This document shows positions 37,194-43,460 of a stretch of 44,359 nt of DNA, in pieces. The notes below the pieces were generated by a model that was given only the letters and a program-made list of their open reading frames with translations, made no database searches and had not been told where the DNA came from. The position numbers and the translations under genes are program-made. The first letter of the stretch is position 1. Each line of letters starts with the position of its first letter. The DNA is taken from positions 1 through 44,359 of IMG/VR virus record IMGVR_UViG_3300023174_000283; one strand, 5' to 3'. The stretch comes from a virus.

Positions 37194-37723
37194 TTACTTT
37201 GCTCCCTTGTATACACCTATTTAGTATACTAAATATAAAAAAAGGACAAGCCATCGGAACCTTCAAGACCTACAAAGGAATATATAAGCCCTTAAATCCA
37301 GGCAAATACAAAGGAGATCCTAACCTTTGTGTATATCGTTCTCTTTGGGAACGCCGTTTCATGCAATTCTGCGATACCACAGAAACTGTTCTGAAATGGA
37401 GTTCTGAGGAAATAATAGTTCCATATAGATCACCTATAGACGATAAGATACATCGCTATTTTGTGGATTTTTGGGTTGAGGCTTTAAACAAAGAGGGTAA
37501 ACCTGAATGCATGCTTGTGGAGATAAAGCCAAAGTCCCAAACTAACAAGCCTCTGATAAAAGAGAACAAATTGACAAGAGGCAAAATGCAGCAAGTTAAA
37601 GACTGGCTAATCAATAATGCAAAATGGGAAGCAGCAAAACATTTCTGCGAAGAACGCGGCTGGCGGTTTTTGATACTTACCGAAAAAGAGATATTTGGAA
37701 AGGAAGAAACCATCAATGGCTGA
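37187..37723 (+). CDS. gp4: Head completion protein gp4 (TnsA-like nuclease fold)
   Basis: Conserved gp4 core: YKGIYKPLNPGKYKGDPNL, then CVYRSLWERRFMQFCDTTE, then VLKWSSEEIIVPYRSPIDDK, then HRYFVDFWVEALN and MLVEIKPKSQTNKP, then AKWEAAKHFCEERGWRFLIL. The R-S-x-W-E, D-F and E-I-K pattern is that of TnsA-like endonucleases; in T4 gp4 (150 aa) completes packaged heads before tail joining. Start doubt: ATG 37187 with GAAGG 5 nt upstream gives 178 residues but overlaps the divergent gp48 start. The family alignment would instead start near GTFKTYKG (about 156 residues), where AAAGGA (37241-37246) is followed 6 nt later only by an ATC (37253). No ATG, GTG or TTG exists in frame between. The canonical ATG is listed here. 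Confidence 0.85.
   Translation: MPFTLLPCIHLFSILNIKKGQAIGTFKTYKGIYKPLNPGKYKGDPNLCVYRSLWERRFMQFCDTTETVLKWSSEEIIVPYRSPIDDKIHRYFVDFWVEALNKEGKPECMLVEIKPKSQTNKPLIKENKLTRGKMQQVKDWLINNAKWEAAKHFCEERGWRFLILTEKEIFGKEETING
37218..37235. promoter_or_regulatory. 18-bp perfect palindrome in the gp48/gp4 divergent region
   Basis: TATTTAGTATACTAAATA reads the same on both strands. Each arm ends in ACTAAATA, six of eight bases of the late-promoter element TATAAATA, one facing each operon. On the minus side the distance to GGGAG and ATG fits a leadered transcript. It may be a symmetrical two-way late promoter or a binding site for a dimeric protein. Only the symmetry is seen; the role is inferred. Confidence 0.45.
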
Positions 37724-38510
37724 TGTAAGAGATTTGATATTTCAAATGATGGCTAATGAACTCAAAGGTTCCAAAAAAGAAAACCGTATTGGCATCATTT
37801 CCAAATTTGCTAAAGACACTGCTCTTGGCTACGCTAAAGATAAGGCTAAAGAATACGCATTAAATCAATTCAAAGGTGCTAAATCTCCTCTACAAAAACA
37901 AAATATACAAGAGTTATCTCAGAATACTGCGAGATTGGCTCTGTTGAGACGAACCAATCAAAAAGATTTACTGTCTAGAAAATCAACACAACTAATAAAA
38001 GATGCGGTTAAAGATACTCGTGTCTCAAACAGAAGAACCCTGCTAAATGGTGATAAAGCAAGAACACCATCTAACATACAGATGGGAAACTTGTATTTTT
38101 TTGGTTATTTACCTGAAAGCAGAGATAAGTCTGCATTTTTTGATGAATTTCCTCTTGTTCTGATGCTTAAACGAGAAAAAAATGGATTCATAGGATTAAA
38201 TTTTCATTACCTGAGAAATAATCTAAGAGCAGATTTTTTTGATGCTCTACTAGACTACTCGGATGTCACAAATTATGATGTTATACCTGAATCCGAAATG
38301 AAAATATCGTATGAAATGTTGCTATCGCCAAAATTTAAAAATTATTATAGACCTTGTATACGATCATATAGGTTTAAGAATTTCATAACAGGGTTATACG
38401 AAATAGATCCTAGAGATTGGAAAACCATGATGTTTTTGCCTTTAGAAAAGTTTTCAAAAATGTCCCGTGAAGATGTTTGGAAATGGTCAGACACAGAAGT
38501 AAAAAAGTAA
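37716..38510 (+). CDS. gp2: DNA end protector protein, gp2-like
   Basis: The 264-residue protein, near T4 gp2 (274), has the conserved middle GNLYFFGYLPESRDKSAFFD, then EFPLVLMLKREKNGFIGLNF, then HYLRNNLRADFFDALLDYSD, then YYRPCIRSYRFKNF and DWKTMMFLPLEKFSKM, a pattern I associate with phage DNA end protectors. The N-terminal 100 residues are Lys/Gln-rich helices. Known role in T4: gp2 caps packaged DNA ends against RecBCD and acts with gp4, here the directly overlapping upstream gene, as in T4. Start: ATG 37716 with GGAAAGGAAG 9 nt upstream; a TTG at 37695 in frame is less likely. It overlaps gp4 by 8 bp. Confidence 0.68.
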   Translation: MADVRDLIFQMMANELKGSKKENRIGIISKFAKDTALGYAKDKAKEYALNQFKGAKSPLQKQNIQELSQNTARLALLRRTNQKDLLSRKSTQLIKDAVKDTRVSNRRTLLNGDKARTPSNIQMGNLYFFGYLPESRDKSAFFDEFPLVLMLKREKNGFIGLNFHYLRNNLRADFFDALLDYSDVTNYDVIPESEMKISYEMLLSPKFKNYYRPCIRSYRFKNFITGLYEIDPRDWKTMMFLPLEKFSKMSREDVWKWSDTEVKK

Positions 38511-39468: not shown

Positions 39469-40188
39469 ATGGCCCTGCCTATTATTGCGACACCTAAGTA
39501 TGAACTAACCGTACCTTCCACAGGAAAAAAGGTAAATTATCGTCCTTTCCTGGTAAAGGAAGAAAAAGTATTACTTTTGGCTAATGAGTCAAAGGATCAA
39601 AAACAAATCATTAACGCAATGCGTGATATTATCACGAACTGCACTTTCGGTGAGGTTGATGTAAAGTCTTTGGCTACATTTGATATTGAATACATCTTCT
39701 TACAACTCAGATCTCGTTCTATTGGTGAGACTATTGAAGTGAAGTTGAAGTGCAAGAAGTGTGAAAAAGATATGCCTATTAGCGTAAACATAAATGATAT
39801 AACGATAAAGCGAGAAGAAGGAATTCAAAACAATATCCGAATCGCAAACAATACTGGAATAATTTTTAATTATCCAAACTTTGAAGCCCTTCAAACTCTT
39901 GAAAATTCTAATGGAAATAACCAAAACACTGAAGAACTTTTGCGCTTTATTGGTTCATGCGTTGAATCAATTTATGATGAAAAGCAAGTGTATCCTGCTA
40001 AGGATTATACCAACAAGGAATTGGTAGAATTTTTGGAAAGCCTACCACAAACAAATTTTGTAAAGATAATGGAATTCTTCAACAAGATGCCGTACATTTC
40101 TCACACAGTAAAGCCTAAGTGCGAAAAATGTGGAAATGAAGAAACGATAGAATTGAGGGGTGCTCAAGATTTTTTTCAATCAGCATGA
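39469..40188 (+). CDS. Baseplate hub / tail assembly chaperone, gp26-like (T4_baseplate family)
   Basis: The 239-residue protein begins MALPIIATPKYELTVPSTGK; continuing KVNYRPFLVKEEKVLLLANE, then VKSLATFDIEYIFLQLRSRS and IGETIEVKLKCKKC are typical of the family of phage proteins related to T4 gp26. Two C-x2-C pairs (C95/C98 and C218/C221) may form one zinc site. The C-terminus FLESLPQTNFVKIMEFFNKM is the helical part. It lies two frames before the tape measure gene, the position of tail assembly chaperones. AAAGGAGA precedes the ATG. A run of seven T near its end (40170-40176) is a -1 slippery site in the right phase to continue into the next ORF. Confidence 0.78.
   Translation: MALPIIATPKYELTVPSTGKKVNYRPFLVKEEKVLLLANESKDQKQIINAMRDIITNCTFGEVDVKSLATFDIEYIFLQLRSRSIGETIEVKLKCKKCEKDMPISVNINDITIKREEGIQNNIRIANNTGIIFNYPNFEALQTLENSNGNNQNTEELLRFIGSCVESIYDEKQVYPAKDYTNKELVEFLESLPQTNFVKIMEFFNKMPYISHTVKPKCEKCGNEETIELRGAQDFFQSA
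40170..40176 (+). promoter_or_regulatory. Candidate -1 programmed frameshift site (T TTT TTT)
   Basis: The zero-frame codons are TTT TTT preceded by T, a perfect X-XXY-YYZ heptamer. After a -1 slip the reading goes TCA ATC AGC ATG with no stop and enters the 40185-40412 frame. Stimulatory structure was not assessed. Confidence 0.55.
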
Positions 40189-40412
40189 TGCATGATAGTC
40201 TGGCGAATATGCTGCAAACCAATTTTCAAATGATGCAGCACCACCAGTATTCATTGCATGATATTGAAAATATGATACCTTGGGAAAGACAGATTTATAT
40301 TGGACTGCTTGTTAATCATGTGAAGGAGCAAAACGAACAAACCAAACAACAGGAAGCACAAATGTCTTCTTCAATGCCATCAATGCCTTCGATGCCATCA
40401 TTAAGAAGATAA
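40185..40412 (+). CDS. Small protein overlapping the gp26-like gene (gp51 position / GT-type extension)
   Basis: The 75-residue ORF starts at an ATG overlapping the stop of the gp26-like gene (ATGA). Seen: NMLQTNFQMMQHHQYSLHDI, then ENMIPWERQIYIGLLVNHVK, then EQNEQTKQQEA, then a repeated SMPSMPSMPS tail. The pattern of helix, P-W-E-R, helix resembles the C-terminal T part of tail assembly chaperones. It may be expressed alone by coupled initiation, as a fusion by -1 frameshift at 40170-40176, or both. There is no ribosome site of its own. The tape measure gene follows after 15 bp, as in other tailed phages where G/GT genes precede the tape measure. Confidence 0.7.
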   Translation: MMHDSLANMLQTNFQMMQHHQYSLHDIENMIPWERQIYIGLLVNHVKEQNEQTKQQEAQMSSSMPSMPSMPSLRR

Positions 40413-40427
40413 AGGGGATAAGAACTA

Positions 40428-43400
40428 ATGGCGGAAAATATAGGTGAAACACCCGACTCGGCATTTCCTGGAGTTCCCCCATCAATTCCAAGTTCTGCTT
40501 CCATTGATAATCTAACCAAAGAAACTGCTAGTTTAAAGGTAAGTATTTCTGAACTTACTCAAACACTAAAGATTCAAAACGCTAAAGATAATATACGAGA
40601 AGAGCGTAATGAAGAAACCAACAAATCTATGTTGGAATGTCTTCAAGAAATGCGATCACAGTTACACGCTTTATTAATTTTACAAAGAGAATCTATTGTT
40701 TCGTCCGCAGAAGAAAGAAGACGAAAAGAACCAGAGATAGAAGATGTAACTGCTGCTGCATCTGCTGCTTCAGGTAAAGGTGGAGGTAAAGGAGAAAAAC
40801 CAGAATTTAAGGGTGGTGGTAAATCATCATTCTTAGATGTTGGTATGGGAATATTCTTTATTGCTGCATCTATTGCCGCTTTGGGTGTTGGTCTTAAACT
40901 AATGAATGAGGTACGATTAGGTGCTATAGTTAGATCATTCATTATGATTGCGGCATTGGGTACAGGATTACTACTATTCTCCAAGTTGGGTAGTGGAGAA
41001 GATATGAAGAAGACCGCACTATCCCTAATAATTCTAGGTGCTGGAATTGCGGCTCTTGCATTAGGACTCAAAGTATTCCAAATGGTATCTTGGGGATCAA
41101 TAATAAAAGGAGCAATTGCTCTAGGATACTTGGCTGTTGTATTACCGCTTTTGAGTATGCTTGCTGATGGCAACAACCTAATCAAAGTCTCTGCTTCTTT
41201 AGTAATTCTAGGTGCTGGATTAGCCGCTGTTGCACTAGGACTAAAGTTATTTGAAATTGTATCTTGGAGTTCCATATTTAAGGGAATAGTTGCTTTAGGC
41301 TTATTAGGAACTGCTTTAGCCTTCATGGGTCTTATTGCTAAAGGCGATAACCTGATTAAAGCGGCTCTTTCTTTAATAATTTTATCTGGAGCGTTTATAG
41401 GATTATCGTTTGCTTTAAATATGTTTGCTGCTGTTCCTTTTGGAAACATAATTAAAGGCACTGTTGCTTTGGCAATGCTTGGATTTACTTTAGGAATAAT
41501 TTCCTTGCTCGGTGGAGATCGTTTAATAAAGGCAGCAACAGGAATACTAATATTTGGTGCTGCTTTAATTGTATTTACTGGCGCATTATTGCTTATGAAC
41601 TATGTGAGTATTGGATCTATACTCAAGATGTTCTTTGCAATGATTCTTATAATGCCTATATTTACTGCTCTAATGGTTGTAATGGCTCCTGCTATGGTAG
41701 TATTTGGTTTTGGTTTATGGTTGCTTGCAAAAGCAGTTAAAAACTTTGCTGAAGCGATGTATATTTTTGCTAAAGCGGCAATAGTTTTTGGTATTGGATT
41801 CTATATCATAGCATCAGCAATCAAATCCCTAAATTGGGAACAATTAGGTATGATTGGAGCAGTTATAGTTGGATTTGGATTGGTATTGCTTGGTTTAGGT
41901 TATGCTCTAGAACGCATGGGAGGTCAAAAGACTTTCTGGAAAACTGCTATGGCTATAACTTTATTAAGCGTGTCGCTAATGGTTCTTTCATTAGCCCTAC
42001 GAACCTTAAATGGTGTTGGTTGGGAATCCATAGGTAAAGCAGGAGCAATTCTATTAGGATTCGCATTAGTTGCCAAAGTAATTGGAGAAAATGGCGGAGC
42101 CTTATTTAAGGCAGGATTGGCATTACTTGCTGTTGGTATTGGTATTATTCCTTTAGCATTTGGTCTTAAGATGTTTGCGGGTATAGAACCGCAAACTGTT
42201 CTTACTGCGGCTTTAGCCCTCACATTAGTTGGAGGAGCAGCATTTTTATTGGGAAGTGCTGGTGCAGGAACTGTTTTAATGGGTGCGCTTTCAATTGCTG
42301 CTTTAGGTATAGCCTTAATTCCTCTAGCATTGGGTCTTAAAATGTTTGCAGGAATTGATTTGAAAATGTTAGGAATGTTGGCATTGGGACTTGTGCTTGT
42401 AACTGCTGCTGCTGTAGGAATGGGAGTTTTACTTCCACTTATAATTCCTGGTGCAATAGCAATTGTGGCTCTTGGTGCTGCTCTCGTTGTTTTAGGTACT
42501 GCGTTAAGTATTTTTGATGATTTCTTAACAGATTTTAATGAAACTATCAAAGTATTTGGTGATGTTGCAGTTAACATCATTCATGCTGTTGGAGATGTGT
42601 TTGGTGTGTTTAACACAATAATTACAACCACAGGACAAGTTATAGGTGATGTTATTGCACAGATGGTTCAACTTGCTGATCCTGGTATGGGAATGGCTTT
42701 GTTGGCAACTGCTGGAGGAATAACTGCCGTTGCCGGTGCTCTAGGGCTATTGATGGCTGCTGGTGGTGTTGGTGGTGTTGTGAGTTCCGCAGCGGGAATG
42801 GTTGGCGGTATAATGCAAGGAATTGGAAACTTCTTTACAGGATCATCTGGTGGAGTAACTGGTGCTTTGCAGGCTTTAGGAATTATTGTAGAAGCCGCAA
42901 AATATGTTAACGAAATAACTCAATTATCAACAGCAATTCAAACTCTGTCTTCTGCTCTTGCAAAACTTGCAGAGACTCCGCCCATAAAGGCAGAGGTATT
43001 GCAGCAACTATCAGAAATTATTGATAAGTCTGAACGATACGCAAAAACTCAACAATTGATGGTAGGAATGCGTTCCACAAGAATGACAATTTCTGAACCC
43101 TTGACTCCTGAAAGCAATGCAAAAACTAATTTTGTAGAGTCATTATCCGCCGAGGAAATTAGTCCATATACTTCTGCATCAACGGGAATGCTGCTTAAAA
43201 TGGCGGAGTCTGAAAAGGCTAACATTCAATCTTCAGGCAATCAAAAATATGGCGACAGACATGAAAAATTACTAGAAAAGATTCTTCAAGAACTAGAAGC
43301 CCGTGGAGTTGCATACAATAACATTTATACGACAAACGCCTCCTCAACCACTTACGCTGGCGGAGGAGGCGGTGTCGCCCAATTTATCCCAATTCAAACT

Positions 43401-43460
43401 TCAGGAAACCGAGAATCTACTTGGAAGGCAACTCAAGGCAGTTACCGTCCTGCTGGCTAA
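40428..43460 (+). CDS. Tail length tape measure protein
   Basis: The 1010-residue protein has an N-terminal region (1-130) that is polar with a coiled-coil stretch (IDNLTKETASLKVSISELTQ, then EETNKSMLECLQEMRSQLHA) and a Gly/Lys linker. From about 135 to 720 it is a long run of hydrophobic segments with an internal repeat of about 58 residues: ALGLK[L/V]F at about 211, 269 and a related one near 329, later IPLAFGLKMFAGI and IPLALGLKMFAGI. Residues 720-860 are Gly/Ala/Val-rich; the C-terminus (870-1010) is helical then glycine-rich (AGGGGGVAQFIPIQTSG). The hydrophobic content and position after the chaperone genes fit a tape measure, which fills the tail tube and enters the host membrane. AAAGGGG precedes ATG. 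It ends flush with the convergent gp32 gene. Confidence 0.8.
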   Translation: MAENIGETPDSAFPGVPPSIPSSASIDNLTKETASLKVSISELTQTLKIQNAKDNIREERNEETNKSMLECLQEMRSQLHALLILQRESIVSSAEERRRKEPEIEDVTAAASAASGKGGGKGEKPEFKGGGKSSFLDVGMGIFFIAASIAALGVGLKLMNEVRLGAIVRSFIMIAALGTGLLLFSKLGSGEDMKKTALSLIILGAGIAALALGLKVFQMVSWGSIIKGAIALGYLAVVLPLLSMLADGNNLIKVSASLVILGAGLAAVALGLKLFEIVSWSSIFKGIVALGLLGTALAFMGLIAKGDNLIKAALSLIILSGAFIGLSFALNMFAAVPFGNIIKGTVALAMLGFTLGIISLLGGDRLIKAATGILIFGAALIVFTGALLLMNYVSIGSILKMFFAMILIMPIFTALMVVMAPAMVVFGFGLWLLAKAVKNFAEAMYIFAKAAIVFGIGFYIIASAIKSLNWEQLGMIGAVIVGFGLVLLGLGYALERMGGQKTFWKTAMAITLLSVSLMVLSLALRTLNGVGWESIGKAGAILLGFALVAKVIGENGGALFKAGLALLAVGIGIIPLAFGLKMFAGIEPQTVLTAALALTLVGGAAFLLGSAGAGTVLMGALSIAALGIALIPLALGLKMFAGIDLKMLGMLALGLVLVTAAAVGMGVLLPLIIPGAIAIVALGAALVVLGTALSIFDDFLTDFNETIKVFGDVAVNIIHAVGDVFGVFNTIITTTGQVIGDVIAQMVQLADPGMGMALLATAGGITAVAGALGLLMAAGGVGGVVSSAAGMVGGIMQGIGNFFTGSSGGVTGALQALGIIVEAAKYVNEITQLSTAIQTLSSALAKLAETPPIKAEVLQQLSEIIDKSERYAKTQQLMVGMRSTRMTISEPLTPESNAKTNFVESLSAEEISPYTSASTGMLLKMAESEKANIQSSGNQKYGDRHEKLLEKILQELEARGVAYNNIYTTNASSTTYAGGGGGVAQFIPIQTSGNRESTWKATQGSYRPAG

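Follow-up and report, generated by a model that had tools for sequence, protein, structure and literature searches.

Probable -1 frameshifting at a T TTT TTT heptamer, conserved as T TTT TTN, joins gp26-like and gp51-like reading frames ahead of a viral tape measure gene

The window, by which we mean the whole 44,359-nucleotide stretch of DNA analyzed here (IMG/VR virus record IMGVR_UViG_3300023174_000283, positions 1 to 44,359), contains two overlapping open reading frames (ORFs) directly upstream of a tape measure gene (Table 1). The product of the first ORF is a gp26-like protein that matches PF12322 (T4_baseplate) with an E value of 1e-69 and 234.9 bits, against a curated cut-off of 24.5, and phrog_150 (baseplate hub) with an E value of 6e-75. 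The downstream frame is gp51-like: it matches phrog_634 ("baseplate hub assembly catalyst"; E 7e-25 to 3e-24) over profile positions 58-120 of 121, equalling only the C-terminal ~49 residues of T4 gp51, and it also matches the C-terminal positions 237-281 of phrog_150. The tail of this gp51-like extension is repeat-like in the window (40363-40409) and at loci L009-L011 (SMPSMPSMPS / KPSMPRMPSVPRR), and is missing in most relatives. The AlphaFold model of the gp26-like protein has a pLDDT of 93, and that of the gp51 domain is of moderate quality (pLDDT 76). Foldseek searches of the PDB returned no match at E <= 0.001 for the gp26 model or for the only moderate gp51 model, so these searches provide no structural link between the gp26 fold and known tail chaperones; PDB hits from a sequence profile were at chance level. 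Predicted-fold matches to the gp26 model occur in Bacillus phage SP-15, Campylobacter phage CP220 and Ralstonia phage RSL1, and the models suggest that the gp26 fold is spread more widely than sequence searches reveal.

Table 1. Features of the gp26/gp51-like locus, in positions of the window
Feature	Position	Strand	Basis
gp26-like ORF, zero-frame (short, G-like) product, 239 aa	39469..40188	+	PF12322, phrog_150, AlphaFold model
Slippery heptamer T TTT TTT	40170..40176	+	Read directly; all 144 non-Ackermann-type loci have TTTTTTN at the equivalent position
gp51-like domain read in the -1 frame, 78 aa + stop, proposed to form the C-terminal domain of the fusion	40176..40412	+	phrog_634, phrog_150 C-terminal matches
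Same -1 frame counted from its first ATG, 75 aa	40185..40412	+	ATG shares bases with the gp26 stop (ATGA)
Stop codon TGA of the gp26-like ORF, zero frame	40186..40188	+	Read from the sequence
Hairpin that may act as a stimulator, outer stem of 7 bp, 4 nt past the heptamer	40181..40214	+	MFE -10.4 kcal/mol
Tape measure protein gene, 1010 aa, directly downstream	40428..43460	+	phrog_4372 tail length tape measure, E 7e-21
Predicted junction peptide of the fusion	DFFSISMMHDSL...		Translation across the proposed shift

The 3' end of the gp26-like ORF reads GCT CAA GAT TTT TTT CAA TCA GCA TGA. The heptamer lies in phase 9 nt ahead of the stop codon, in the arrangement X XXY YYZ, the last base of GAT providing the first T. 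Read in the -1 frame from 40176, the same stretch gives TCA ATC AGC ATG ATG CAT (SIS-MMH) and remains open as far as a stop at 40410-40412. The 78 open -1 codons cover the whole of the 40185 ORF, and the predicted frameshift fusion would count 236+78 = 314 aa. The sequence and the profile matches confirm what an earlier note on this DNA had described, namely an in-phase T TTT TTT, a -1 frame open into the 40185 ORF and a tape measure gene next in line, and with them a layout like that of genes G and GT of lambda. Runs of seven T's are rarer in the window than expected (12 seen versus 39.7 expected), and its genes hold five in-phase TTTTTTN sites, the heptamer of Table 1 included. At the other four, which lie 267-2826 nt from the stop codon, the -1 run-ons are 0-31 aa long and do not reach another gene. 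Two of these four are T TTT TTT sequences with dead -1 frames inside the gp2-like gene at 37695-38510 (38096-38102 and 38234-38240). Because of these four other sites, the window taken by itself provides weak evidence for frameshifting.

Relatives of the locus were drawn from IMG/VR by means of motifs inside gp26, with the site itself excluded, and from annotated phage genomes. This yielded 169 scorable loci, reduced to 115 after removal of near-duplicates, of which 109 have the heptamer. An in-phase TTTTTTN at the homologous place, together with a -1 frame open into gp51, is found in all 144 loci that are not of the Ackermannviridae type (109/109 non-redundant), and the remaining 25 of the 169 are all of that type. 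The heptamer loci include those of Kyanoviridae, the Sinorhizobium phages phiM12 and phiM9, Stenotrophomonas phage Mendera, Pseudomonas phage Astolliot, the jumbo phage Atu_ph07 and Straboviridae outside the T4 branch (Vibrio phi-ST2, Cronobacter LPCS28). Among the 109 non-redundant loci with the heptamer the six T's are 100% conserved and third positions nearby vary. Of all canonical sites, only that of phiM9 (locus L023, heptamer before position 1993) reads T TTT TTG, and the two Sinorhizobium phages carry an additional ORF between gp51 and the tape measure gene (L022:2175-2594, L023:2164-2586). The probability, from codon usage, of a T-ending codon followed by TTT is of the order of 10^-43 if lineages are assumed to be independent, a value that is indicative only and overstated, because the loci are phylogenetically correlated. 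The real argument for the site is its invariance across genera and families, rather than this codon-usage probability; on these comparative counts the combination of heptamer and open -1 frame is far beyond chance. The conservation that the earlier note had wished to see checked is therefore upheld. Among the relatives retrieved, none outside two groups is devoid of a slippery site or has its -1 frame interrupted by stops, either of which the earlier note had named as evidence against its own reading; the two groups are the Ackermannviridae type, which is without the canonical heptamer, and the T4 type, which is without the arrangement.

A gp51-like frame placed behind a slippery sequence might nevertheless be translated as a separate small protein, starting at ATG 40185 by termination and reinitiation and involving no frameshift. 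Independent initiation is possible in this phage, because the ATG overlaps the zero-frame stop; such a zero-frame/-1 ATGA overlap is an ordinary layout of coupled genes, and many cyanophage records annotate gp51 as a gene of its own. As the sole source of gp51 we nonetheless consider this improbable. Codons one to nine of the -1 frame, where the domain begins, include no ATG, GTG or TTG in 44 of the 115 non-redundant loci, and among the 71 that do have an early -1 start codon just one shows a Shine-Dalgarno-like 4-mer. Likewise, no such 4-mer is found 5-16 nt upstream of the ATG in the window. In the -1 codons that run from the heptamer to the usual ATG, residue 2 stays hydrophobic, and this holds as well for 22 loci whose zero-frame stop lies elsewhere and so does not impose it. 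Independent initiation would leave these hydrophobic codons upstream of the ATG, and the fully conserved in-phase heptamer, unexplained, and in T4 gp51 the domain is joined to a gp26-like part. Missing start codons, scarce Shine-Dalgarno-like sequences and the conserved hydrophobic codon ahead of the ATG thus favor, at the level of comparative sequence, production of the domain as a fusion; in the window phage, reinitiation at ATGA would be possible in addition to frameshifting. In Cronobacter LPCS28 (L025:2720-2890) and Pseudomonas Astolliot (L033:1983-2159) the gp51 frame is either unannotated or annotated just from an internal start, because no start codon precedes the domain.

Slippage could also take place during transcription, with RNA polymerase slipping on the T run and the resulting mixed mRNAs yielding both products. 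The seven consecutive T's of the window would suit such a process, whereas in 88/144 loci the run is just TTTTTTC, and tracts that typically support transcriptional slippage are longer than this. Moreover, it is the codon phase and the re-pairable codons that are conserved, and not the length of the run, which makes a transcriptional origin of the two products very improbable. Finally, the T run could be nothing other than a conserved Phe-Phe written in AT-rich codons, with gp51 in the -1 frame by chance, since Phe-Phe is invariant in the IMG/VR gp26 alignment and TTT makes up 70% of the Phe codons of these genes, but this explanation is refuted by the comparative counts and has next to no likelihood left: of 98 other Phe-Phe dipeptides in these genes only 7 are encoded as T TTT TTN, TTTTTTN occurs elsewhere in these gp26 genes at 13 in 25,832 codons (0.0005 per codon), and the -1 relation is kept in every locus.

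Frameshifting is therefore the reading that we retain, and RNA structure 3' of the heptamer was considered as a possible stimulator. The hairpin of the window folds no better than shuffled sequence (z -0.3). When 45-nt windows were scanned from -400 to +150 around the heptamer across the relatives, folding z-scores dipped only directly 3' of the heptamer (mean -1.15, with 28% of loci below -2, for a background of ~-0.15). Near-perfect hairpins are present in S-PM2 (z -8.2), S-SSM7 (-6.1) and several related cyanophages, and in none of the other clades. A universal stem-loop in fixed register is ruled out, as hairpin positions differ and hairpins are weak or absent outside some cyanophage clades, the window included. 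Since they are strong in some clades and absent in others, structure would be a clade-specific enhancer at most.

In the Ackermannviridae-type loci the first Phe codon is replaced, giving ATT TTC or CTT TTC and no canonical heptamer, and the gp51 frame is kept in the -1 register, in several cases without an ATG and often unannotated. Individual examples are L028:2798-2962, L030:2735-2899 and L031:2801-2953 (Ackermannviridae), together with L026, L027 and L029; in these a gp51-like -1 frame with an MPWHL motif follows (A/C)TT TTC and is either unannotated, annotated from an internal start only or without an ATG. In several of these loci the -1 frame is closed until one codon ahead of TTC, so that any shift would have to occur on TTC or its neighbors. 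We infer a single-tRNA slip, from T TTC to TTT, as the form that such a shift could take.

The T4 branch presents a third arrangement. T4, Aeromonas phage 25 and Providencia PSTCR6 carry 26 and 51 as two separate genes that diverge from each other. T4 gp51 aligns with the profile of predicted fusions over 235 columns across the junction, gp51 domain included, with an E value of 1.3e-11 on its own and of 1.3e-20 as a three-sequence profile with two relatives, while T4 gp26 aligns with the same profile only as far as the shift site (E 1.7e-20). Control searches with six other T4 proteins, three shuffled versions of gp51 and reversed gp51 gave E values of 0.19 or worse. T4 gp26 and gp51 also match each other (E 6e-11), and both match PF12322. 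Thus, T4 gp26 is a homologue of the short form, and T4 gp51 is a homologue of the fusion from end to end. Differently from the window, T4 has two divergently transcribed genes and no frameshift; its gp26 keeps the Phe-Phe, encoded as TTC TTT at the old site. The simplest reading of these alignments would be that a duplication in the T4 branch gave one gene to each form and that the shift site decayed. The proposal of the earlier note that gp26/gp51-type genes of T4-like phages use frameshifting is consequently supported for all scored loci outside the Ackermannviridae type, but not for T4 itself, and the Ackermannviridae type departs from it in having no canonical heptamer.

Taken together, we conclude from these sequence comparisons that the locus is very probably a single tail-assembly-chaperone gene that is read in two ways through a -1 frameshift at T TTT TTT. 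Most ribosomes would terminate at the zero-frame TGA and release the short gp26-like protein, whereas a minority would slip back by one base on the heptamer, both tRNA-Phe re-pairing one base upstream, and continue to 40412, producing the long protein with the gp51 domain at its C-terminal end. If lambda G and GT are a guide, the tape measure protein would be coated by the short form, and the less numerous long form would use its gp51 domain to recruit tube or baseplate subunits. That the gp26/gp51 products act as chaperones is an idea drawn from T4 genetics and from gene order. T4 gp51 is needed for assembly and absent from the particle, and the presence of gp26 in the hub is disputed (PMC3004832). 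On a wider scale, one gene family may have taken three routes to a short and a long chaperone, a scenario to which we give slightly less than even weight: canonical slippage of two tRNAs at T TTT TTN, a -1 shift at the non-canonical (A/C)TT TTC of the Ackermannviridae type, where only the T TTC tRNA re-pairs well, and duplication in the T4 branch of Straboviridae, other branches keeping the frameshift.

For the annotation of phage genomes, this would mean that cyanophage and Ackermannviridae records in which gp51 is given as a separate gene, truncated or omitted are due for annotation of a frameshift product. With lambda gpG/gpGT (reviewed in Atkins et al. 2016, PMC5009743) the window shares a short protein with a predicted minor -1 extended form, a slippery site close to where the first ORF ends and a tape measure gene that comes next. 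It differs in its slippery sequence, T TTT TTN, and in a gp26 fold without PDB match, the likeness being one of gene layout. In the review literature T4 is given as an exception to tail-chaperone frameshifting (PMC5009743). Vladimirov, Gautam and Davidson 2022 (Virology 566:9-15) are credited by citing papers with identifying the tail assembly chaperone genes of T4-like phages (PMC10885494, PMC12846349), being cited for separate short and fused long genes in T4-like phages (PMC10885494) and for poly-T frameshift signals in the TAC-N genes of T4-like phages (PMC12846349). Because of these attributions, the core of our finding has to be regarded as already published in kind, and the relatedness of T4 gp51 and the frameshift fusion agrees with the results attributed to Vladimirov et al.; the Ackermannviridae-type shift site may be unreported so far, and so may the downstream hairpins specific to some clades. 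The -1 frameshift in the tail chaperones of Vandenendeviridae and Andersonviridae (GTTTTT motif, PMC12846349) is alike in its two-isoform logic, its T-rich site and a -1 frame open in all relatives, although it belongs to other families and uses another site. The window locus would add another case to the reported frameshifting chaperones of T4-like phages.
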